A stretch of DNA of 64,000 bases from a cyanobacterium endosymbiont of Rhopalodia gibberula. GTDB lineage: Bacteria > Cyanobacteriota > Cyanobacteriia > Cyanobacteriales > Microcystaceae. The DNA is taken from positions 682,001 to 746,000 of the forward strand of contig NZ_AP018341.1 in NCBI RefSeq assembly GCF_003574135.1, given 5' to 3'. Below are positions 18,297 through 45,893 of this stretch, one piece after another. The position numbers and the translations under genes are program-made. Under the pieces are notes generated by a model. The model was not told where the DNA came from, ran no database searches, and saw only the letters and a program-made list of their open reading frames with translations. Position 1 is the first letter of the stretch; the number at the start of each line of letters is the position of its first letter.

Positions 18297-20994
18297 AGCT
18301 TACTATGTTTAGGAATCGGTTAGCTAAATTTCTTAAAATTTTCTGTAATCTCGTTAATAATGTGTTACTAATTTCTTTAACACCACGACCTATTATTGTA
18401 ACCGTTAAGTGGATAGATATCACTAAAGTAAAATCTGTTTCACTGAGTACTTCATAATTTTGCATTTTCTAAATCTTCTCTCATAACAGAGAGACTTTTC
18501 TTATATTCTCTTTCTTAAAAAGAGAAAGTTGTCCACTTTCTTTGTTTCACATTATTAAACGTGAGATTAAAAAGCAAGTTAGATATAACTCTAACTACCT
18601 AAATGAAGAGATACAAAATGTCTTAAGTTTTTGATGTTTATTTAGAGCTGCTTGCTTAGTGGTGTTAGTTTGACTATTATCATCTTTAATAAAGCTGCGA
18701 GTCTGTATCATCAGACGGTTAATTAACTGTTGCCACAGAATATTTGCTTTTTCCAAAGCCTAATAGAGGTTCTGCAGTAGTTTGGAAATAATTTCAGTTA
18801 AATTCTATTTCTCCCCTTTAATTATCAGATTCTAGTTTTGAGTTTAATATCAATATCTTTATGTTCGGGGACAAATAGATATAATTGCACGTAATAAATC
18901 TAAATAACTCCTATCATAGAACTTTGTCGTTAATTAAGATGTATTTACTGTCACTTTGCTCAATATAATTCTTAATCGATACATAAAGTTTATCTTCACA
19001 ATTACCAAAATTATGATTTTTATCAATCAAAATAACAAGAAAATTGGGTAAGTCTCTAAAGACACCACTATATAGATAGTAGTTTTTCTCTTAGTTCATA
19101 AGCCTCCCGATAATCTTCCCATATAGGTATCGAAAAACTTTGTACTCATGTGGGAAGATTTCTCCCTACCCAGCTATGTTGTTCACCATCACTCCATTGC
19201 GAAAGTTAACATCATTCACCGCAGTTATAACAGTCACTTTTTGAGACTAAAATCAGTTAAACTCTAGGACAACTTAACACTGAATTAGTCTATTTCTGGT
19301 TTATTGTAAGAAAAATAACATTTTTTAAGTAAAATACAATAAAGACAATAGTAATTTTCTTATGACGAAAACTAATAGTTAAAGCTAATTTTTCTCTTAT
19401 TCATACATAAAATCAGTTATTTTATCTATTATCGAACCCGGTTTACAATTTTTTTGATAGTGTCATGGTTAAGAATATTTGTCTTAAGTTTATCTTGTCC
19501 TGAAAGTCTAGAGAAAGTTAAATGACTACTACCAAGGAAGAGGAGTGTGGTTGAGTTAGAATGGTTTTGAGAAACTCAATAGAGTTTAACGATTAGTTTT
19601 GTAGATAGAATTTGTTTGTTAAGTTTTTTCAGTAATCTTTAATATTTATTAATGAATATTTATAATAATTTTTAATAAAAATCTTGGAAAACTCATTTTT
19701 AAAGTGAGTAGCTTTGTCCGCATCGATTCGATTCTTTTTACTACCTAATCCTAAAATATAATAAAATTTATCTTTTAGGTAATTATTGTTTTTTCATCAA
19801 CAGACTACAACAGAAGCTTTAATTTTTTGACAATTGTTTAATCCTATCATAGATGAAGTTTCTATCGTTTTAAATTGAAATACTAAACACAAAGATCAGA
19901 TCTTTTTGTATGATTTAGACTATTTACGAGATAATCTAAATTTTTACCATCGATCTTGTCAAAAATATTGGATATACAGTTTTCCTATTTTGTTATCAAT
20001 CGTTATTGAGTAGATGTTATATATATGTTTTCATGATTCACCTATTTTTTAATTTATAAGACTAGAGATTTGTTTCCTTTTTATTTATGAAACCATAAAT
20101 AAAAAATTATTAATTAAAGTTGTTAGAACCAAATAAATATATTTTATACTTATAAAAAGTTTTATTATTCTAAATACAAATAAGTATAATGAGTTATTTA
20201 TTTGATTTTTTACCTTAGGTGATTGATCGATCCAATTTAAATAATGGAGGCTCGATAAGTATCATCTTACATCTAATATCCTGAGAATACTATTGCTAGG
20301 TAAGATTTTTATTTATGATTTGTAATTTTTTTAAAAAATTTACCCAATTTATATTAATTTTAGATTAAGTAAAAATTTTCTTAAAAAGATTAATATCTAT
20401 TAATTTCTTTAAGAAGATAGGAACAGTTATATAATTACAATTCTTGTATGAATCAAGTTTATTTAAGGTATTTTACCTTTCAACTATTTATTAATAAATG
20501 CTTCTTGACGTAATAATAATTAACTAAAAAATCTTATTTATTTCAGATGTTTATTGAAAGCTAATAACTATTTTTATTTATATAGTTATCAGCTAACGAA
20601 TGAAACTGTCTCTCTAAAATTATGTTTGATAGAATCACTTAATCTACAGTATAAAGTATCGTCAGATTCATATCTTTTATCTTATCTTGGGATTACATTT
20701 TTTGGTACCAATAAGCGACTACTATAAATTTTTTATCAGTTTATTTATTTAGAGATATAATGTGAATATCATTAATTATTTTTACAATGTATTTTTCTTG
20801 ATATTCAATACTTATAATTGTTTTTATAAACATAGATCTATAATAAACAGAATGGTAACAAAAGTAGTCCATTTTTTTAAAATTTAGTCTCAGTCTAATT
20901 AAGATTAGGACGTATTTATTTGCTATTTTATAATTAATCAAAAATTAACGCAGTTGACTAAAGCTAAATTATAACTTTTCTGATCGATATAAAC
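18297..20994. other. Eroded gap with minus-strand coding traces
   Basis: No intact gene in 2.7 kb. On the minus strand, protein-like text survives between about 19240 and 18600: DYREAYELREKLLS near 19130-19090, then an open piece about 19090-18914 with LYSGVFRDLPNFLVILI and FGNCEDKLYVSIKNYIEQSD, and near 18800-18620 a helical piece with ANILWQQLINRLMIQTRS. Stops and frameshifts separate them. I infer a decayed minus-strand gene but do not recognise it. From about 19400 on the text is very AT-rich and I see nothing. Confidence 0.45.
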
Positions 20995-21306
20995 TCATTC
21001 AACACGTTCAAGAACTTTAACATTATCAAAAATGTAAACAGGGGAAGTATGTTCAACCTAAACTACTTGATTAGGTTTTTCTTTTCCACAGAAGGAAATT
21101 ATATATATATCTACTGTTGACCCATTTTCTACTTGAGATAGTTTTCCTAAAAACTGATTAGTAGTATTTAAAAATTTAGGATTATTTAATATTTTAATTA
21201 GTTGACTATTGTCGGTTAGTTTTACATACTTAAAGTAAAACTGAAATTTATTTCGATAATTATCAATATTAATATTGGCTATGTGGTCAATAGGCGTATA
21301 GTTTTA
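20995..21306 (-). pseudogene. C-terminal remnant of an unrecognised protein
   Basis: The minus strand is open for about 100 codons except for one TAG at 21058-21060. It reads NYTPIDHIANINIDNYRNKF near its start, NTTNQFLGKLSQVENGSTVD in the middle, and VYIFDNVKVLERVE before a final TGA at 20995-20997. A stop precedes the piece and no start codon is present, so it is the tail of a longer gene whose 5' part is lost. The single nonsense codon suggests fairly recent decay compared with its surroundings. Composition (alternating beta-like strings) suggests a soluble or exported domain. I do not recognise the family. Confidence 0.5.
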
Positions 21307-21333
21307 AGAGAAAGCGTGAAGGTTAGTCATCTA

Positions 21334-21405
21334 AATAATATTAGTCAACTAAGAAATTTTTGCTCTTACTTCACTTTCTAAATTTCTTAGTTGGCTAATA
21401 TTATT
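21334..21405. repeat. 26-bp near-perfect inverted repeat (hairpin)
   Basis: Arms at 21334-21359 and 21380-21405 are complementary over 26 bases with a single mismatch that would be a G-U pair in one RNA strand. The loop is 20 bases. One arm reads AATAATATTAGTCAACTAAG. It could be a relic terminator or a small palindromic repeat; no gene flanks it directly. Confidence 0.85.
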
Positions 21406-21409
21406 CCCT

Positions 21410-22019
21410 CCTTAACTAAAAATTAACGAGTAGCTGCTAGACTTTTATTGTCAAAAGTATAACTGGTAAACTATCTCAGTACTGATGGGAAAAAATCACA
21501 TTCATCAATGGGGAGCCATACAACAAATTTCTGAGTTCAGAAAGTTTAATAAAACTTGAACCTGGATAATTACATTTACACATTTAAATAGTATTAATTA
21601 CTAACGGATATCCAATATTTTAATGAATTTTTAATATTATTTAATTTTAAGCTAAAACTGGTTGTATTGTATGTAGATATTAGACAATTAGGAACAGAAA
21701 ATAACCCAAACGCTGCTTATTATGCAGTATTTTTAGCTCAGTTTCAAATAGTGTCTAAGTTGAACAATTCTGTTTTTCCCTGATAACACTGTACCATTAT
21801 TTTGTTAATAGTTCTGGGTTAAATAATATCCCCTTCTTAAGTAAATACTGTATAGTTACTCATTATCTAAAAAATTTTTGATAAATGTTAGAGCCATTCC
21901 TACTAACAAATTAAACTTCAGCGTCAGTAATTTATTCTGAGATACTAGCCTCGATGAGATTATCAAAAAATTTTAGAGTCATATAAATCCTAAATAAAAG
22001 ATTATCAATATCTTTAAAA
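21410..22019. other. AT-rich gap
   Basis: No gene. A short minus-strand piece near 21500-21420 (DECDFFPSVL, then SYTFDNKSLAAT) may belong to the same lost gene as the remnant at 20995-21306, but the link is weak. Confidence 0.35.
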
Positions 22020-22400
22020 TTTAATATATTTAGCGGTTTAAGATAAAAAGAATGATAATAAGCAACTGCCCTTATCCTTTGGTTAAAAGTAAAGAGATAA
22101 ATTCATTAAGAAGACGCGATAATCGCTTATTGATAAGCGGTTTAGGCAGGTTTTGAATATTTTATGGAGTGAGATAACCGATAACACCATAGCTAAATAG
22201 TCCGTTAACCAGGACTTCTATCATGATTTTCTGTATAGAACTGTGTCCATTGTTTTGAGGTTTATCATCTTTTATTGAAGGGAGTTGGTAGTTTCTGTGA
22301 TGTAATGCAATCCAATCCAATCTATATTTAAATTGATGGTACTGAGAAAATTTTTGGGCTTTACGATATCTACTTGCATTTGTTATCTTACTGCGATGAT
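22020..22400 (-). pseudogene. Remnant of an unrecognised minus-strand gene
   Basis: On the minus strand an open piece without a start codon reads RKAQKFSQYHQFKYRLDWIA, then SIQKIMIEVLVNGLFSYGVI and GYLTP before a TAA. After that stop the same frame continues with NLPKPLINKRLSRLLNEFIS and a further hydrophobic tail with more stops. About 110 codons of continuous protein-like text with a few nonsense codons points to a decayed gene. The hydrophobic segment suggests a membrane protein. Family not recognised. Confidence 0.45.
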
Positions 22401-22669
22401 TCCATGGGATTTAGGTACTTGAATAATTCAAGATTACAATGTTATTGACTTTAATTGTTTTTAACAATTTAACAATCAAAAAATATATAGACTTTCTTAA
22501 ACGAATACTATCTTTACAAAATTAATCCTGATTTACATAGCTATGAAGAAGGTAAATCATGCAAATGGATGAAGAAGCGATAATAGTAGTAGAGATAAAA
22601 TCTATGTCAATATCTGGTATTTTTTAGTCGCTCGAATAATTCTATCTGCTCCTTTCGGAGAAACTCCCC

Positions 22670-22990
22670 ATGAAAAGAATTTTTGTTTTAAAATTACTGG
22701 TAACTAGCTTGTTTATTGGTTCAATATCATTATTTTCTTCTCCAGTTAGGGCTCAGATTATACAATTGGGGAATGATGTTCGTATAGATTTTTCTAATGA
22801 ACGCCGTCGCCGTCGCGGAACTAACATAAGAATGCATACCGAAGATAGTCGCCTCGATGTAGGCTTAGAAGAAGAAAGAAGACCTCAAACGAGAATCAGG
22901 ATATTTGACAGAAATAGTTCTTTTTCTAGTGAAGTTCGTGAGGATATTCCTGCTTCTGAGCGAAGAGTTAGGTTTTCTATTCCTTTCTAA
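22670..22990 (+). CDS. Small exported protein of unknown function
   Basis: Protein of 106 residues starting with a clear Sec signal peptide: KR at positions 2-3, a hydrophobic core (residues 4-24) and a likely cleavage site after PVRA near residue 29. The mature part of about 77 residues is highly charged, with an RRRRR run (NERRRRRGT) and repeated Arg/Asp/Glu alternation, and no cysteine. I do not recognise a family. The ATG is preceded by CTCCTTTCGGAG, which contains a GGAG-like ribosome site 12 bases upstream. It stands alone between two eroded regions, so an intact signal peptide and frame suggest that it is still under selection. Confidence 0.7.
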   Translation: MKRIFVLKLLVTSLFIGSISLFSSPVRAQIIQLGNDVRIDFSNERRRRRGTNIRMHTEDSRLDVGLEEERRPQTRIRIFDRNSSFSSEVREDIPASERRVRFSIPF

Positions 22991-25110
22991 CAGATTCAGT
23001 ATGGGAAATCTCCGATTTTAGTGGCAAAATATGCGTTTAGGGTTTTTCTGTATTTGTCGTTAACCAACCTAATTCACTTAAGAGTCCACGCAAGTTGCAT
23101 AAAGTACACATTTAGTAAGCTCAGAAAAGCTGCAGACTTTTCGTTTTGAACTAAGGAAATATTATGAGAGAGATACAAACTAATTAAATTTATTGGAACA
23201 CAAAGCAAGTTTTGTTTTGTAGAAAGTTTAGTCATTATAAAGATGAAGCTTAACATGTGAATGTTTAAATGTGTGGACATGTAGGTGAATAGTTGCTTGA
23301 TTAACAGTAAACTCAGTTAATAATTCTCTGAACTTTGTCTGACTGAATCACTATTTACTGAGTTTAATTACATTTCTTCAATAATTTTGGGAGGGGACGA
23401 TAACCTTCTGTCTCTATAATTGAGATGAAAAGTTTCTTTAAAAGAGTTTCTTTAAAAAGAGGGATTATTTTCATCTAAATAGATGAAAATAATCCCTCAT
23501 AGCAAAAGCTCGTAACGTTTTTTAAAAAAAGCTTCTTTGCAATTGCTTTTTACTTCCGTTAAACTATTAATATAATTGACTCCAAACTACAACAAAAACA
23601 GAAAAAATTCGTCAAAAATTTCCTGTCATATTGAGAATCATAGAGTTATTGATAAAACTACTTTATTAGTTTTTTTTGTAAAAATTAAAATAAAGTTATT
23701 AACTCAGTCTAAGTTCTCAACTCTATTTAATAAGCTACTTCAGCTAGTTTCGTGATTGATACCTGCTTAATTTAAAGTTTAAAATAATTGTTTAGGTAAG
23801 GGACTAGCAATCTTTTTCACTTACCAACTCTAAAGAGAATTTTTTCTACCCTAAATCTTAAAAAATTTTAATTTTGTTCATAAATACAGCTAATTAAATC
23901 TAGTTATAACGTAGGAAATGGATTCAATTCATTAAGAGCAATTTATTTTTTTTAAAAAATTAAACTAATTTTGACGATTATTTTTTGGCCAGTTCTTAAG
24001 GATTATTTAACTCAATGAGTTTAACAAACATTAGTAAATAATTATTAAAACCTGTCTGAGAAATTTGCTAAACAACTATAGTAATCCCCTGAGCGACTTG
24101 ATTTTATCTATGTCATCTTTTTCATTATCCTTTAATAGTCTATTAAAGACTAAAAACTCTGATTGCTTCAACTTTAGTTTTCAATTAATATTGGGCAGTT
24201 TTTAAGTATTAAGAAAGGGCACCTTCAAAGATTTTTCTTGTTCCTTATATAATACATCGAACTAGCATTTTAAACTTGTTCTTTAGACCATATTTACTAT
24301 TTCAAAGAAAGTATCTATAACATAATTAGCTAGGTTAAAATCTTACTCAGATATTTAAATTATGTCTAAACAAATCGTAGTTGAATTTAAAATAAATAGA
24401 TAACGTGTGTCGTTGGGAGTTCTGATATAATTAGCTTAGGAGAAGTACAGCTTACAATTAAAGGGAAATGACAGAAAAAAAAGTCCGTATTGAGAATAGT
24501 TGATTTTCTAGTATTGTTTTGATAAAGTCTAGAATTTTCTGAAACAATATTCTTTAGCCCCTTATGTATTGTATCTTTCTGCTTCATAACAAAGACGTTG
24601 GGAGTAGAATGATTCTGTTTTTGTATATAAATCATTATTATGACAACTTAGAACAAACCTATCTAACTTATCAATTTTACTACCTACTTAACTGAGGAAA
24701 AAACATAGATAAGCTGCCGCATTAGCCACTGGAATCAGCTGTTAAATCATTAATTTGCTCTTCTAAGAAATGAATAATGAAATTTACCAGCCGAGCTTAT
24801 AAATTAGAATATAGATTTCTTGCAACCGATAATCTGAATTAATTGGTGTGGCTTGTTGAGTTTATCGGTGATATTGATGCGTAGGATTGAATATCAGCCT
24901 AGTTATAGGTGGCAAATTACTTGATTTAAGACAAGAAGTTTAACTCATTAGATATGATTAAATCTGTATCTTCTTCAAGATCAAAAGCAAAGGCTTCAGA
25001 TTTATTAGACAAGCTCTCAATAAACCTGCTACGAACTTGCCTTTTTATTGGCGGACTTATCCTAGAATAAGCAACGGTCAGTATTCATCATTGTTCAGTT
25101 GAAGTGTTTC
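22991..25110. other. Eroded gap with faint minus-strand traces
   Basis: 2.1 kb without an intact gene. Protein-like minus-strand pieces occur near 24880-24690 (ARLVNFIIHFLEEQINDLTA then GSLSMFFPQLS) and near 25060-24930 (ISPPIKRQVRSRFIESLSNK, SEAFAFDLEEDTDLIISNEL, then a stop). They probably mark one or two decayed genes downstream of cysK. I do not recognise either. Between 23000 and 24650 I see only AT-rich sequence and the hairpin at 23459. Confidence 0.4.
23459..23498. repeat. 19-bp perfect hairpin
   Basis: Arms at 23459-23477 (GAGGGATTATTTTCATCTA) and 23480-23498 are perfectly complementary with a 2-base loop. It lies 470 bases past the small exported protein gene in empty DNA. It could be a terminator of a lost gene; there is no T-run directly after it on the plus strand. 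Confidence 0.88.
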
Positions 25111-35408: not shown

Positions 35409-35765
35409 TCAAGGAAATTTACTAGTAACTTTACCGATAATATGATGAAGGGTTATAAAACCAAAATACCGACTATCATTACTTTCTGCTTTATTTTCCC
35501 CCAACAAAAAACAGTTACCATTTTTATCAACTAAAACAACTCGTTTGATAATCTTTAAATTATGACGGTAAGGATGCTTAGCTACGACTAAGTCCCCTAT
35601 TTCGGGCAAACGGCGACGGTAGGCTCTTGTGTCTACAAGGACCTCCTCTCCTGCCTTAAGCAGGGGAAACATAGAAGCCCCTGTAACACAAAACCGTTGA
35701 CGCAATCTTAACAACCAGAAAAGTAATTCTTGATTCTTACTAGTAATGATCAACTGTATGTACAC
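35409..35765 (-). CDS. sodX: Nickel-type superoxide dismutase maturation peptidase
   Basis: S26 signal-peptidase-like protein of 118 residues that removes the leader of Ni-SOD so that the new N-terminal His can bind nickel. The catalytic Ser is in GASMFPLLKAGEEVLVD (S31), and the general-base Lys is in LKIIKRVV (about K74). Ends with a conserved GxNxxxSxDSRxxG-like box (LLGENKAESNDSRYFG). It lacks the membrane anchor of housekeeping signal peptidase, as in the SodX family. It starts 18 bases after sodN on the same strand, and this sodN-sodX order is the known arrangement in marine cyanobacteria. Both genes are intact. Confidence 0.93.
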   Translation of the reverse strand: MYIQLIITSKNQELLFWLLRLRQRFCVTGASMFPLLKAGEEVLVDTRAYRRRLPEIGDLVVAKHPYRHNLKIIKRVVLVDKNGNCFLLGENKAESNDSRYFGFITLHHIIGKVTSKFP

Positions 35766-35783
35766 TACCTAAAATAAACAAAT

Positions 35784-36242
35784 TTAGCTAGCTCTTACCC
35801 AGACTACATCCCGATTCTTGCTGGACCAGAACATAGTATGAATTTTCTCAACAGTAGCAAGTAATTCGGTGGCTTGGTCCAAGCTAACTCCTACCTTACA
35901 CGCAGAGCAAAGTTTAGCTGCTTTCCAAAAAGTGTCGTGAAGATCAGGATATTTTTCTAAATGTACAGGTTTAAAGTAGTCAGTCCAAAGAATAAGTAAT
36001 TCTTCTTTAGTTTTTTGTGCTTGCTCTTCCTTAATTGCGATATAGCGAGAAAGAGTATTAGCAGTGCCATGATCTCCGACAGAAGGATTAAGGTCTAAGA
36101 TTTTCTTCGTCATAGACAATACCGCTTCAGCGTAGATACGAGCAGAGGCGGTATCATAAACACCACAAGGTCCATCGCAGTGAGCACTAACCTCTGGCGC
36201 ACGGAAGTGCTTTTTAATTTGAGTAGCAATTCTGTTGAGCAT
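35784..36242 (-). CDS. sodN: Nickel superoxide dismutase
   Basis: Converts superoxide to oxygen and hydrogen peroxide with a Ni centre. The precursor is 152 residues: a 20-residue leader (MLNRIATQIKKHFRAPEVSA), then the mature N-terminus HCDGPCGVYD. Within it His1, Cys2 and Cys6 are the nickel ligands (the nickel hook) and Tyr9 is the gating tyrosine; all are present. The rest is the four-helix bundle of the hexamer subunit. sodX follows 18 bases downstream. A Ni enzyme avoids iron and may suit a nitrogen-fixing or iron-limited cell; this last point is inference. The frame is intact, in contrast to the sdhB pseudogene next to it. Confidence 0.97.
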   Translation of the reverse strand: MLNRIATQIKKHFRAPEVSAHCDGPCGVYDTASARIYAEAVLSMTKKILDLNPSVGDHGTANTLSRYIAIKEEQAQKTKEELLILWTDYFKPVHLEKYPDLHDTFWKAAKLCSACKVGVSLDQATELLATVEKIHTMFWSSKNRDVVWVRAS

Positions 36243-36642: not shown

Positions 36643-37625
36643 TTAGCAGCTTTTTGCTTGTACCCGTTCGATTAGTAATCGAACCTCATCGGTTCCTTTT
36701 GATGGTTTAAAAGTGAGGGAAAACTTACCACTCGCTACCATTCGTACCCCCAAAGGAACAAGACTAAACAATCCTTTTAAATCTCTCAAATAATTCCCTA
36801 CTACAAATAGTCCAAACTTACGTTCATCAATCCATCCCCCTTGTTTGACTAAGTCTACCAAAACTTTACGATGCCGAATTGCACGACTGTATTGAGAATC
36901 TTTTGTGGCTAAAATTTTTTGTTTAATGTAACCAATTTGGTTCATGGGGAAAACGCCCATGGGACACACGGCATTACAAAAATAGCAACGAGTACACCCC
37001 CAAACTCCTTAGGTTACATCATTATGAGTTTCTATGCGAGTTTCAGTTTCTGTATCCCGTGAATCAACTATCATACGTTGTGTTTTGGCGAGAGAGTGAG
37101 GACCAACAAAATCGGGGTTAACCTTAAGAGCGTTACATTCGGAATAACAGGCTCCACACATGATGCAGCTGCTGGTCTGATTGAGACGTGATCGCTCTTC
37201 GGGGGTTTGCAGGAATTCATGTTCAGAAATAGAATGTGCCTTTATACTGACGTAGGGTTCTATGGCTTCTAATTTTTTCCAAAAAAGGGACATGTCCACT
37301 ACTAAATCCTTAACTACTGGGAGGTTTTCTAGGGGGCAATGGTTATGGTTGGCGTTTTTTCTTTCTCAGAGTGTCTAAATTTTTCAAGTTAACTGCCCAC
37401 ATTTTCTTTGCAAGCAAGGGCAGAACGACCATTAATTTTCATGTTACAACTACCACAGATCGTATTACGACAATTTTTACGAAAAGCAAGAGTTCCATCT
37501 TTTTCCCATTTAATACGATTGAGACAATCCAAAATAGTTGCGTTCAACTTCACGTCCAAGCTATAAGTCTGTGAATGAGGTGTTTTATTAAACTTTTGTC
37601 GCAGAATTTTAAATTGAACTTTCAT
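36643..37625 (-). pseudogene. sdhB: Succinate dehydrogenase iron-sulfur subunit, inactivated
   Basis: Whole-length sdhB can still be read on the minus strand. The N-terminal 2Fe-2S ferredoxin domain is intact (CRNTICGSCNMKINGRSALAC). A TAA at 37389-37391, where the family has Glu or Gln, ends it after ACKENVGS. The same frame then continues (LEKFRHSEKEKTPTITIAP) to a five-base G run at 37332-37336, where a missing base shifts the frame. It resumes as ENLPVVKDLVVDMSLFWKKL with the second cluster CIMCGACYSEC. A second TAA at 37009-37011 interrupts NDVT-stop-GVWGCTRC, then CYFCNAVCPMGVFP gives the last cluster and the frame runs to its natural end. Three independent lesions make it non-functional. 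Loss of SDH removes a TCA and respiratory entry step. Confidence 0.93.
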
Positions 37626-42113: not shown

Positions 42114-43148
42114 TTATTTGTCTTCAGCAAAAATATAGCGATAGAGCTCATTAGCATTAGGTTCTGGACTATCTTGAGCAAATTGGACAGCTTTATCAAT
42201 TTTCTCTTGGATCTTATTTTTAATGTTCTCGAGTTCTTGATTGTCGGCCAAATTTTGCTCTACTAAGTAAGTAGCAAGTTGTCTGATGGGATCTCGTCCT
42301 CCCCAAAATTCTTTTTCATCGGAAGATCTGAGTTCATCAGGATCAGCCAAAGAATGTCCTCGAAAGCGATAAGTTAGGGCTTCAATTAGGGTTGGTCCTT
42401 CTCCGCTACGGGCACGGGCGATGGCTTTTTGGGCAACACTACGAACAGCTAGTACATTCATCCCATCAACTTCCACACCAGCCATATCAAAAACAGTGGC
42501 TTTTTGATAGATTTTCGGTTGAGAGGTGGCCCGCTCATGAGCCATGCCAATCGCCCATTTGTTATTTTCAACGACATAAATAATTGGTAATTTCCACAAT
42601 GAGGCCATATTTAGACACTCAAAGAATTGACCATTATTGCTAGCTCCATCCCCGAAAAAGCACACAGTAACTTGATCTGATTTCTCATCTCCCATCATTT
42701 CCCGTCGATATTTACTCTGGAAGGCTGCCCCCGTAGCTACAGGAATCCCTTCAGCGACAAAGGCATAACCTCCTAGCAGTCGATGTTTTGCAGAAAATAA
42801 GTGCATTGAACCCCCTCGTCCTTTGCTACATCCAGTCTCCTTTCCAAATAATTCTGCCATCACTTCGTGAGGAGGAACCCCGCAACTGAGAGCATGAACG
42901 TGATCACGATATGTGCTAGATACATAGTCTTCATCAGGACGCAAAGCTTTGATTATTCCAGTAGAAACTGCCTCTTGTCCATTGTACAGATGAACAAAAC
43001 CGAACATTTTACCCCGGTAATACATTTCAGCACACTTGTCTTCAAATAAGCGCCCCAGCATCATGTCTTCATAGAGAATTAAACCTTCTTTTTTGGTAAT
43101 TTTGATGGAAGTTTGGTCAAATTCTGGTAATTGTCGTTGGGAAACCAT
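42114..43148 (-). CDS. pdhA: Pyruvate dehydrogenase E1 component, alpha subunit
   Basis: Thiamine-diphosphate-dependent subunit that decarboxylates pyruvate and, with E1 beta, acetylates the lipoyl group of E2. It is 344 residues. The TPP motif [20 protein letters not shown] lies near residues 163-182, with ENNKWAIG following. [15 protein letters not shown] near residue 50 and [17 protein letters not shown] near 270 are further hallmarks, the latter holding the loop that is phosphorylated in eukaryotic enzymes. Intact and full length. E2 (pdhC) is at 10.7 kb; E1 beta and E3 are not in the window. With SDH broken, acetyl-CoA here would serve mainly biosynthesis. Confidence 0.97.
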
Positions 43149-43362
43149 AGATTTTGTAATATTATGATGATTAATGAAGACTATTGAGTGATTAAGGTTG
43201 ACTTAGCTCAACCGCCTACTTCAAATGAGGGCAAAAAATACTGACTTAAGAATTATAGAAGGAGATGAGATTTTTATGTTAAAAGACTTATACGATTTGC
43301 CATAACTCCAAGTTTTTACTAAAACAAACTCTAATAAACCCAATAGAGTCAACGTGGTTAGG
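43149..43362. promoter_or_regulatory. Divergent promoter region between pdhA and ftn2
   Basis: The 468 bases between the pdhA and ftn2 start codons must carry both promoters. I cannot place the -10 or -35 boxes with confidence. The second half holds the small ORF at 43363. Confidence 0.3.
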
Positions 43363-43521
43363 ATGGAGCGGATCTCTATGAAGGCTAAGATTGAGAGAGG
43401 TAGTAACTATTTTACTAATTGGAATATTTTAGTTATAATCTTTCTCAGCTTTGTCTATGGTTACCAGTTACTGAATCTTTTCTGGAGCTTAAGTGTTATT
43501 AGCTTACTATGTTGTCCTTGA
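43363..43521 (+). CDS. Possible small membrane protein (52 aa)
   Basis: A complete plus-strand ORF of 52 residues starting at ATG (MERISMKAKIERGSNYFTNW) with a hydrophobic segment at about residues 21-48 (NILVIIFLSFVYGYQLLNLF...) and a CC pair near the end. TTAGGA lies just before the start. It is 95 bases upstream of ftn2 on the same strand. It could be a single-span membrane peptide, or a chance frame in the promoter region. Family not recognised. Confidence 0.35.
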   Translation: MERISMKAKIERGSNYFTNWNILVIIFLSFVYGYQLLNLFWSLSVISLLCCP

Positions 43522-43616
43522 TCTGTTTCCTAAGTATCTTAAACTGGACGTGTATCCTACTATAGGCAGAATAAGGACAAGCTTATTGTCTTGACCCGGC
43601 TCTGAGGAAATCAACC

Positions 43617-45893
43617 GTGCGCATCCCCCTCGACTACTACAGAATTTTGGGAGTTCTTCCCCAAGTAACAGATAAGCAGCTTAGTCAGGCTTATCATGAT
43701 CGCTGCTTGCAATCACCCCGCCGGGAATATAGCAAGATGGCGATTTTATCGAGGAAGCAACTGCTTACTCAAGCTTATGAAATATTATCGGACTCAGAAC
43801 AAAGGGCTGCTTACGAGGCCTTGTGTTTAGAAAGCACTCTTTCCGACCAATTAAAGTCTAATCCAGAAATTCCTTTAACTGGCCCAGGGGAAGAAATCCT
43901 TCCTGATTCATCGCCGTTAGATTCTAAAACATTAAAAATTGCCCCTAAGCATTGGATAGGGGCTTTAATGATTCTCCAAGAGTTGGGAGAATATGAACTA
44001 GTAATTAAGTTTGGTGAAATTTCTCTTGACACCTTGTCAAGTCCTCGATCAGAGCTGTATTCCTCCATCTGCGAGATTCAAACTGATGTTATTCTTACTA
44101 TTGCTCTAGCTGCTTTAGAATTAAGCAGGGAACAATGGCAACAAGAAGAATATGAACAAGCTGGGATTTCAGGAGGAAAAGGACTCAGTATACTCCAAGA
44201 AAATTGTTTATTTCCCTCATTACAACTCGAAATTACCAAAGAACTTTATAAGTTACGTCCCTACAGAATTCTGGAGTTGTTGGCTCAACCTGAAAAAAAT
44301 CGAGCTGATCGAGATCGAGGTAAAACCTTACTTCAAGAAATGTTAAAGGAAAGACAGGGGATTGATGGTCAAGGTGATGATCACTCTGGGCTTGGTATTG
44401 ATGATTTTTTACGGTTTATTCAACAACTAAGGACTTATCTGACAGCCTCTGAACAAGAAGATATTTTTTTTCGTGAAACCAATTACCGGTCAGCTGTAGC
44501 TGCTTATTTAAGAGTATATTCTTTAATTGCCAGTGGTTTTGCCAGAAAACAACCGGCTTTCGTTGTTGAAGCAAAAGATATTCTTGACGGTTTAGAGAAA
44601 CTTCAAGACGTCTCTTTAGAAAAAGGAATTTGTGCATTGCTTTTAGGAGAAACCCAAGAGGCTATCCTAGCATTAGAACAGTGTGAGGATGAAGAAGTCT
44701 TAACTTTTGTTCGACAACAATCCCAAGGTGCGCCAGATCTTTTACCTGGATTGTGTTTATATGGACAACATTGGTTACACACAGAAGTATTTTCTCATTT
44801 TCGTGATTTAAAAAAACGGACGGACTCTTTAGAAGATTATTTCGCTGATCAAGCAGTTCAGACTTACTTAGAACAATTATCCTTTGATTCTCAAAAGAAT
44901 TCTCTTAAAGAAAAACAAGAAAATGAAGTAATGTTTAGCAGAACAATCTCTCGAAATGATCATGTCGTTCAAGAAAGAAGATCTTTCACCAAGGGACGAT
45001 ACGTAAGAAAAACTCGCTTTCAACATCAAGAACCTCAGTTACTCGTCAGTGGAGGTGGGGGCATTCCCACCCTGGCCACAGCAGCTACCGTTCCTACGAC
45101 TCCATATCGTCGTAGTTTTAGGGAAAATTATTCGAGAGGAACTAGAGACAGGTCAGTTGTTACGACCTCTCACCAAGATTCCCTCCGGAGGTCACAGACT
45201 GACCAATCCCTTAGTTTACCGACAACAGCTGACGAACCAGAACAAGGATCTCAGCGTGGGTCATATAAGCAGACCAATCCCTACAGGCCCAGCAAAACAA
45301 TTTTTAAATTCCGGCCTTGGTTTGTACTAGTTGCGTCATTGACCGTTTTAGGAGCAGTGGGATCATCGGTTAAATGGATTCAATATATTGTGTCTCCCTT
45401 GGTTGCTTTAGAAGAAGAACAACTAGTTTTAGAACTACGTCAACCCCCAATTACCATTCCAGTGCCAGAGACTAGAATAAAAAATCAGATAAAAAATCAG
45501 ACAGAGAAACTGACCATAGAAGACGCTAAACAAGTTATTGAGATGTGGTTATTGGGTAAAGCTGATGCTTTTGGAGTTGACCATAAGATTGAGTCATTAA
45601 ACAGCATTTTAGCAACTCCTCTTCTCAGTTCCTGGAAAAATAGAGCGCAGAGTCTTAAAAAATCCCAAAACTATTGGCAATATAAGCATAATGTTACTAT
45701 AAAGTCCTTGAAGATTACTGATAATAACCCAGATAAAGCAGTCGTTGAAGCTGACGTTAGAGAAATTGCTGATTTTTACCAAAATGGTCAACGAAATGCG
45801 AATATGTCCTATGATGATCGACTGAAAGTTCGTTATGAGTTACTCCGCGAGCAAGATCGTTGGCTAATTCACTCCCTTGAACTTATTAATTAA
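43617..45893 (+). CDS. ftn2: ARC6-like cell division protein Ftn2/ZipN
   Basis: Membrane-anchored organiser of the cyanobacterial Z-ring and ancestor of plastid ARC6. It is 758 residues. Domains in order: an N-terminal DnaJ-like domain (about 1-70, DYYRILGVLPQVTDKQLSQA, without the HPD motif), a long helical repeat region (about 100-420), a Ser/Arg-rich linker (about 430-560), one membrane helix near 570-585 (WFVLVASLTVLGAVGS), and a C-terminal periplasmic IMS/DUF4101 domain (about 640-758) ending DRWLIHSLELIN. The start is GTG (MRIPLDYYRILG), matching the family. An intact division gene implies that the cell still divides with its own FtsZ machinery. Confidence 0.95.
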   Translation: MRIPLDYYRILGVLPQVTDKQLSQAYHDRCLQSPRREYSKMAILSRKQLLTQAYEILSDSEQRAAYEALCLESTLSDQLKSNPEIPLTGPGEEILPDSSPLDSKTLKIAPKHWIGALMILQELGEYELVIKFGEISLDTLSSPRSELYSSICEIQTDVILTIALAALELSREQWQQEEYEQAGISGGKGLSILQENCLFPSLQLEITKELYKLRPYRILELLAQPEKNRADRDRGKTLLQEMLKERQGIDGQGDDHSGLGIDDFLRFIQQLRTYLTASEQEDIFFRETNYRSAVAAYLRVYSLIASGFARKQPAFVVEAKDILDGLEKLQDVSLEKGICALLLGETQEAILALEQCEDEEVLTFVRQQSQGAPDLLPGLCLYGQHWLHTEVFSHFRDLKKRTDSLEDYFADQAVQTYLEQLSFDSQKNSLKEKQENEVMFSRTISRNDHVVQERRSFTKGRYVRKTRFQHQEPQLLVSGGGGIPTLATAATVPTTPYRRSFRENYSRGTRDRSVVTTSHQDSLRRSQTDQSLSLPTTADEPEQGSQRGSYKQTNPYRPSKTIFKFRPWFVLVASLTVLGAVGSSVKWIQYIVSPLVALEEEQLVLELRQPPITIPVPETRIKNQIKNQTEKLTIEDAKQVIEMWLLGKADAFGVDHKIESLNSILATPLLSSWKNRAQSLKKSQNYWQYKHNVTIKSLKITDNNPDKAVVEADVREIADFYQNGQRNANMSYDDRLKVRYELLREQDRWLIHSLELIN

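Follow-up and report, generated by a model that had tools for sequence, protein, structure and literature searches.

A recent sdhB pseudogene in the cyanobacterial endosymbiont of Rhopalodia gibberula and the breakage of succinate dehydrogenase in four spheroid bodies

Among the closest described systems to the R. gibberula symbiont (RgSB), a cyanobacterial endosymbiont that fixes nitrogen inside a diatom and does not photosynthesise, are the spheroid bodies, or diazoplasts, EtSB, EcSB and EpSB. That these symbionts have an incomplete, partial TCA cycle has been reported before (PMC12903740, PMC11070190); three symbionts lack many genes of the cycle, and the retained catabolism consists of the oxidative pentose phosphate (OPP) pathway and respiration (PMC11070190). 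One of these accounts (PMC12903740) is in accord with the gene content observed here and implies the loss of succinate dehydrogenase (SDH); it also reports that the TCA cycle is wholly absent from UCYN-A. For cyanobacteria at large, a review gives the soluble subunits as the only known parts of SDH and states that SucCD probably forms succinyl-CoA from succinate (PMC7133116).

The locus described here lies in a window of 64,000 nucleotides (contig NZ_AP018341.1, positions 682,001 to 746,000), and it is a recent sdhB pseudogene. Free-living Cyanothece PCC 8801, SU2 and UBA12306 carry the same full-length gene with the same cluster motifs, but their frames are intact (about 326-329 aa) whereas that of RgSB has three lesions. 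The gene is readable as a pseudogene in RgSB and absent from two UCYN-A-like genomes (1.4-1.5 Mb; G013 and G021, which we identify by size and family), in which neither an SdhB nor an SdhA C-domain match was found; one of the two has a lone weak match to the SdhA protein (E 4e-4, 27% identity, ~64 residues), which looks like a common flavin-binding stretch. We consider it very probable that both soluble SDH subunits were recently broken in RgSB, and separately in its three sisters after symbiosis began, leaving the TCA cycle in stubs.

Structure and lesions of the sdhB pseudogene

The gene runs from an ATG at 37625 to a TAA stop at 36645-36643, and its features in window coordinates are as follows.

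36643-37625, minus strand: sdhB pseudogene (succinate dehydrogenase iron-sulfur subunit), full length, 983 bp
37410-37472, minus strand: cysteines of codons 52, 57, 60 and 72, presumably of the 2Fe-2S cluster, all kept (coordinates from codon numbers)
37389-37391, minus strand: nonsense codon TAA, codon 79; GAA in all six aligned relatives (nucleotide alignment)
37332-37336, minus strand: C5 run at a one-base deletion, codon 97, frameshift (sequence and alignment)
37135-37167, minus strand: second cluster motif CIMCGACYSEC, codons 154-164, cysteines all kept (conserved-Cys comparison)
37009-37011, minus strand: nonsense codon TAA, codon 206; ancestor CAA or AAA (nucleotide alignment)
36964-36996, minus strand: third cluster motif CTRCYFCNAVC, codons 211-221, cysteines all kept (conserved-Cys comparison)

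Three ordered segments of the locus match positions 1-77, 111-203 and 220-325 of the 330-position NCBIfam model NF009227 (E 1.6e-39 to 2.1e-47), an arrangement that is not due to chance, and tblastn with the 329-residue PCC 8801 SdhB covers its residues 1-324 in two frames, with amino-acid identities of 71% and 75% in the two segments. The preliminary description had read the gene as otherwise complete but broken by two nonsense codons and a frameshift, with three legible iron-sulfur motifs, and had proposed alignment to intact cyanobacterial SdhB as a check; alignment with six relatives confirms all three lesions, and all 13 conserved cysteines are present, 12 of them within the cluster motifs. 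Conserved here means shared by 95% or more of a set of 99 distinct SdhB proteins of cyanobacteria, from 109 loci picked by their SdhB match with a broken sister locus (G001) excluded, and the absence of internal stops from these 109 is no survey. We take the second motif to be that of the 4Fe-4S cluster and the third that of the 3Fe-4S cluster, as is usual.

The origins of the three lesions differ in certainty. Both stops had been attributed to probable Glu or Gln codons; for the one at codon 79 the ancestor is Glu, given the GAA in every relative. At codon 97, where the C5 run on the minus strand appears as a G run on the plus strand, the deletion stands, but its assignment to the run is less secure: the site reads GCTCCCCTAG in the sister genome G004 and GCCCCCTAG in RgSB, and, because G004 has that sequence, the lost base may instead be the T of the GCT codon beside the run. 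The stop at codon 206 is likewise real, but its ancestor was Gln or Lys rather than with certainty Glu or Gln, and is less certain than the Glu of codon 79; the six relatives have CAA (2), AAA (2, both sister symbionts, G001 and EtSB), GAA (1) and AGA (1).

Set against what defines SdhB (NF009227, TIGR00384), the RgSB gene matches along the whole profile and retains the cysteines of the three Fe-S clusters, and it lacks an uninterrupted frame and, within the genome, an intact SdhA partner. It has the marks of a pseudogene: several inactivating lesions of different kinds, selection relaxed in both sdhB and sdhA relative to a constrained background, and the chromosomal place seen in relatives, where frames for cyAbrB, NiSOD and a CAAX protease, identified by visual comparison with the proteins of the window, adjoin sdhB in G001, EtSB and G004 as they do in the window.

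Elsewhere in the window, a nickel superoxide dismutase gene (sodN) and a signal-peptidase-like gene lie directly downstream of the broken sdhB (35409-36242, minus strand), and near it, at 42114-45893, are an ARC6-like division gene and an intact gene for a dehydrogenase E1 component of the pyruvate dehydrogenase type (PF00676). The segment 18466-22669, in which no open reading frame reaches 80 aa and where GC falls to 27% (at 20001-24000), probably consists of decayed genes. Scans of the window with Rfam (gathering scores) and for tRNAs gave no matches.

Both subunits in RgSB and its sisters

The window sdhB is the single match to PF13085 (Fer2_3) in the RgSB genome at E<=0.001, so that no second copy, which the preliminary description had suggested seeking, was detected. 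The sdhA gene, also to be sought, lies half a megabase away (G000:C1:208673-210394) and carries two TAA codons and an in-frame codon loss. The other SdhA-like gene of RgSB is intact, encodes 579 aa and is 39% identical to SdhA; from its length and family it is presumably nadB. With its sole SdhB gene and its sdhA both broken, the known soluble succinate dehydrogenase of RgSB is, as far as its genes tell, lost.

Four spheroid-body genomes were searched: RgSB, EtSB, G001 (probably the E. clementina symbiont) and G004 (presumed to be EpSB, the Epithemia pelagica symbiont), the last two named by us. Both sdhA and sdhB are broken in all four, the three sisters resembling RgSB in this and differing from it in lesions and age. 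EtSB is the oldest and most decayed, its sdhB carrying several indels and eight stops, all within codons 40-295, and most of its sdhA being deleted. G001 has one TAA in sdhB (codon 201) together with Cys154Tyr, which removes a cluster cysteine, and five stops and three deletions in sdhA. G004, the youngest, has a single TAG in sdhA and a single sdhB deletion after codon 263, past all cluster motifs and past the last residue that aligns with the solved subunit of E. coli (query residue 241).

RgSB has no inactivating lesion in common with any other spheroid body over the 904 codons of sdhA and sdhB. EtSB and G004 have one -1 deletion in common, in the CAAGGGGG run (G run) at sdhB codon 263 (loci L034 and L035). 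As these two are not sisters in the tree, this deletion must have recurred unless some losses are shared, and it is probably a recurrent homopolymer deletion.

Among the wider relatives, SdhB is matched in 56 of 59 genomes, the exceptions being two of 1.4-1.5 Mb and one that is 86% complete. Across the class, at least 278 of 289 genomes have a Fer2_3 match at E<=0.001 and at least 253 of 289 one over the curated cut-off; among the matches listed, many weak ones fall in small genomes of one family (f29), which are probably without a true SdhB.

Selection and the timing of loss

Codon models were fitted by branch with stop codons and gap-touched codons masked, and in the per-gene tests and the joined sdhA+sdhB model the internal spheroid-body branches were pooled with the free-living ones. 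The tree of intact genes, all positions, joins RgSB with EtSB, then G001, then G004 (nodes 74-88), an order that positions 1+2 alone do not recover. In the joined model omega is 0.073 on free-living branches, 0.097 on the stem, 0.298 in RgSB, 0.405 in G001, 0.583 in EtSB and 0.106 in G004, and omega=1 is rejected on every whole tip (RgSB p 2e-7, G001 2e-4, EtSB 8e-4, G004 2e-36). Under the one other order tested, with G001 joined to EtSB, the RgSB tip, the only tip retested, still rejects it (p 6e-9). Gene by gene, RgSB has an omega of 0.285 against 0.086 in free-living relatives for sdhB (p 0.001) and 0.291 against 0.057 for sdhA (p 3e-9).

If each tip is treated as a mixture of constrained and neutral evolution, the neutral share is about 24% of the branch for RgSB, 36% for G001, 55% for EtSB and 4% for G004, figures that serve as a rough clock and assume that the constrained rate of a symbiont equals that of the free-living branches. 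The loss of SDH in RgSB thus falls roughly within the last quarter of its branch, in keeping with the recent decay first proposed, and that in G004 is very young, which supports separate losses in the four lineages. Spheroid-body genes still in use may tolerate more amino-acid changes, and neutral time would then be overstated; fumC, taken as a control, has an omega of 0.14 on the G001 tip and 0.12 on that of EtSB, with 0.086 for symbionts overall and 0.068 for free-living relatives (difference not significant), and the nadB control has 0.126 in the symbiont crown and 0.123 in free-living relatives. In the 'tips' model of this comparison, the estimate for the very small internal class of sdhA reached the bound (10).

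The main competing explanation is a single ancestral silencing, through regulation or an unknown membrane subunit, after which the reading frames decayed at different speeds. That all four spheroid bodies are broken would fit it, as would the codon 263 deletion that EtSB and G004 have in common. sdhB is slightly relaxed on the stem (0.176 vs 0.086, p 0.044), the G004 tip shows the same (0.147, p 0.039 against that free-living value), and three near-invariant SdhB sites (G100E/K, N153S and A182T) are altered in all four; because of these signs, constraint may have loosened before the lineages split. Against it, neutrality is rejected along each of the four whole tips, on which ground we favour parallel losses after symbiosis; sdhA on the stem (0.071, p 0.39) and in G004 (0.083, p 0.12) hardly exceeds the free-living value; and RgSB has no lesion in common with any sister. 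An ancestral silencing is therefore improbable, though it keeps more weight than the two explanations below. A change at E224 had been considered as a further stem lesion and was dropped, as this position is not constant in the relatives, 71 of 99 having E, 21 D and 7 G.

It is scarcely credible that sdhB is intact in the cell and was broken by assembly or amplification, even though RgSB DNA was amplified, sequenced on a MiSeq and gap-filled by PCR (available parts of PMC5638926) and one lesion sits at a homopolymer run: two of the three sdhB lesions are substitutions and sdhA adds two stops, omega is raised over the whole of sdhB, and the three other spheroid-body genomes are broken too, mostly elsewhere in the gene. 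The two RgSB genes moreover hold five lesions in 904 codons against none in the 2,031 codons of fumC, nadB, ogdA and ssadh (Fisher p 0.003, a descriptive value only, the four control genes having been chosen after they were found intact).

Equally little speaks for three translated pieces that assemble into a working SdhB, an outcome that, by the preliminary description, would overturn the pseudogene reading. The 13 retained cysteines, the GTG codons that open pieces 2 and 3 and an AAGGA upstream of piece 2 would fit such a protein, but in each of the three aligned relatives with an intact gene the AAGGA is ordinary coding sequence, the partner SdhA is itself interrupted twice, and sdhB evolves at the raised omega given above. 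Changes unique to RgSB (4N/3S, 1N/4S and 4N/2S in the successive pieces, with EtSB and UBA12306 excluded from the comparison rows) are too few to show selection on each piece, and a split protein is extremely unlikely.

Metabolism around the missing enzyme

By the codon record, each sdhAB was under selection along part of its own branch, and on the preferred reading, that of parallel losses after symbiosis, it would then have decayed in parallel with the others. The gap at succinate oxidation noted in the preliminary description is borne out, with sdhA broken as well, and a second is added: PF02866, the malate dehydrogenase domain, has no match in RgSB (E<=0.001), G001 or G004, and in EtSB only a remnant fragment with three stops (G003:C1:273030-273344). 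With SDH and malate dehydrogenase both missing, the cycle is interrupted at no fewer than two steps.

Two stubs would remain. One is the branch to 2-oxoglutarate, known from print, which appears to extend to succinate in three of the four genomes; the other would run from fumarate to malate by fumarase, whose gene fumC is intact in all four, as is nadB. Fumarase is probably kept to recycle the fumarate released by arginine and purine synthesis. The extension to succinate rests on adjacent genes for an SSADH-like protein and a TPP enzyme (L174, G000:C1:336200-339800), intact in RgSB, G001 and G004; EtSB differs in having no comparable match to an intact pair. In the RgSB copies scanned, the best NCBIfam match of the SSADH-like gene is NF006915, below cut-off, and that of the TPP enzyme is NF006187, over cut-off and named acetolactate synthase. 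Given its pairing with the SSADH-like gene, we take the TPP enzyme to be the cyanobacterial 2-oxoglutarate decarboxylase OgdA (cf. Zhang and Bryant 2011), a name that NCBIfam does not give it.

In these three genomes ogdA is strongly constrained and the SSADH gene mildly relaxed. That the pair became neutral together with SDH (omega of about 0.25-0.37 in RgSB and G001) is rejected for ogdA (p 3e-14) and for ssadh (p 2e-5). The symbiont branches have an omega of 0.125 against 0.065 for ssadh (2dlnL 12.6; the 5' end of the UBA12306 gene is unalignable), and ogdA appears raised on the stem (point estimates 0.10 vs 0.035). The succinate branch might be kept for succinyl-CoA, for NADPH, for trimming 2-oxoglutarate or for export to the host, and we do not choose among these. 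A SucC-like gene is intact in all four genomes, its RgSB and EtSB copies scoring under the curated cut-off of the SucC models. A DASS transporter (PF00939) was considered as a succinate exporter and dropped, its specificity being unreadable and the family occurring also in free-living relatives and both UCYN-A-like genomes; RgSB and G004 have matches, as does G001, where one stretch contains two TAA, but EtSB has none.

SDH may have been free to decay because respiration would be fed by NADPH from the OPP pathway, as proposed for the E. clementina symbiont (available parts of PMC11070190); this reason for its dispensability is one that we infer. The wider picture would then be that SDH was lost separately in four spheroid-body lineages after symbiosis, that selection kept the succinate-making enzymes in three, that succinate is an end product passed to succinyl-CoA, by way of the SucC-like gene found in all four, or to the diatom, and that respiration is fed without the enzyme linking the TCA cycle to plastoquinone. 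We put this forward tentatively, as nearly an even call that leans slightly against it.

A broken gene in a shrinking genome is familiar, and for general biology the sdhB pseudogene is itself ordinary. In the available parts of PMC12903740, PMC11070190, PMC5638926 and PMC11131595, we found no description of the sdhB lesions, of parallel loss or of selection on the succinate branch; what appears to be new concerns the parallel timing of the losses and the selection that still acts on succinate production though the oxidising enzyme is missing. It poses a puzzle, succinate synthesis being kept though no enzyme was found in the cell that oxidises succinate. Spheroid bodies serve as models for the birth of organelles, and this gene, broken in four lineages at four apparent ages, marks an unusually datable step and allows a rough dating of how respiration is dismantled once photosynthesis has been lost.
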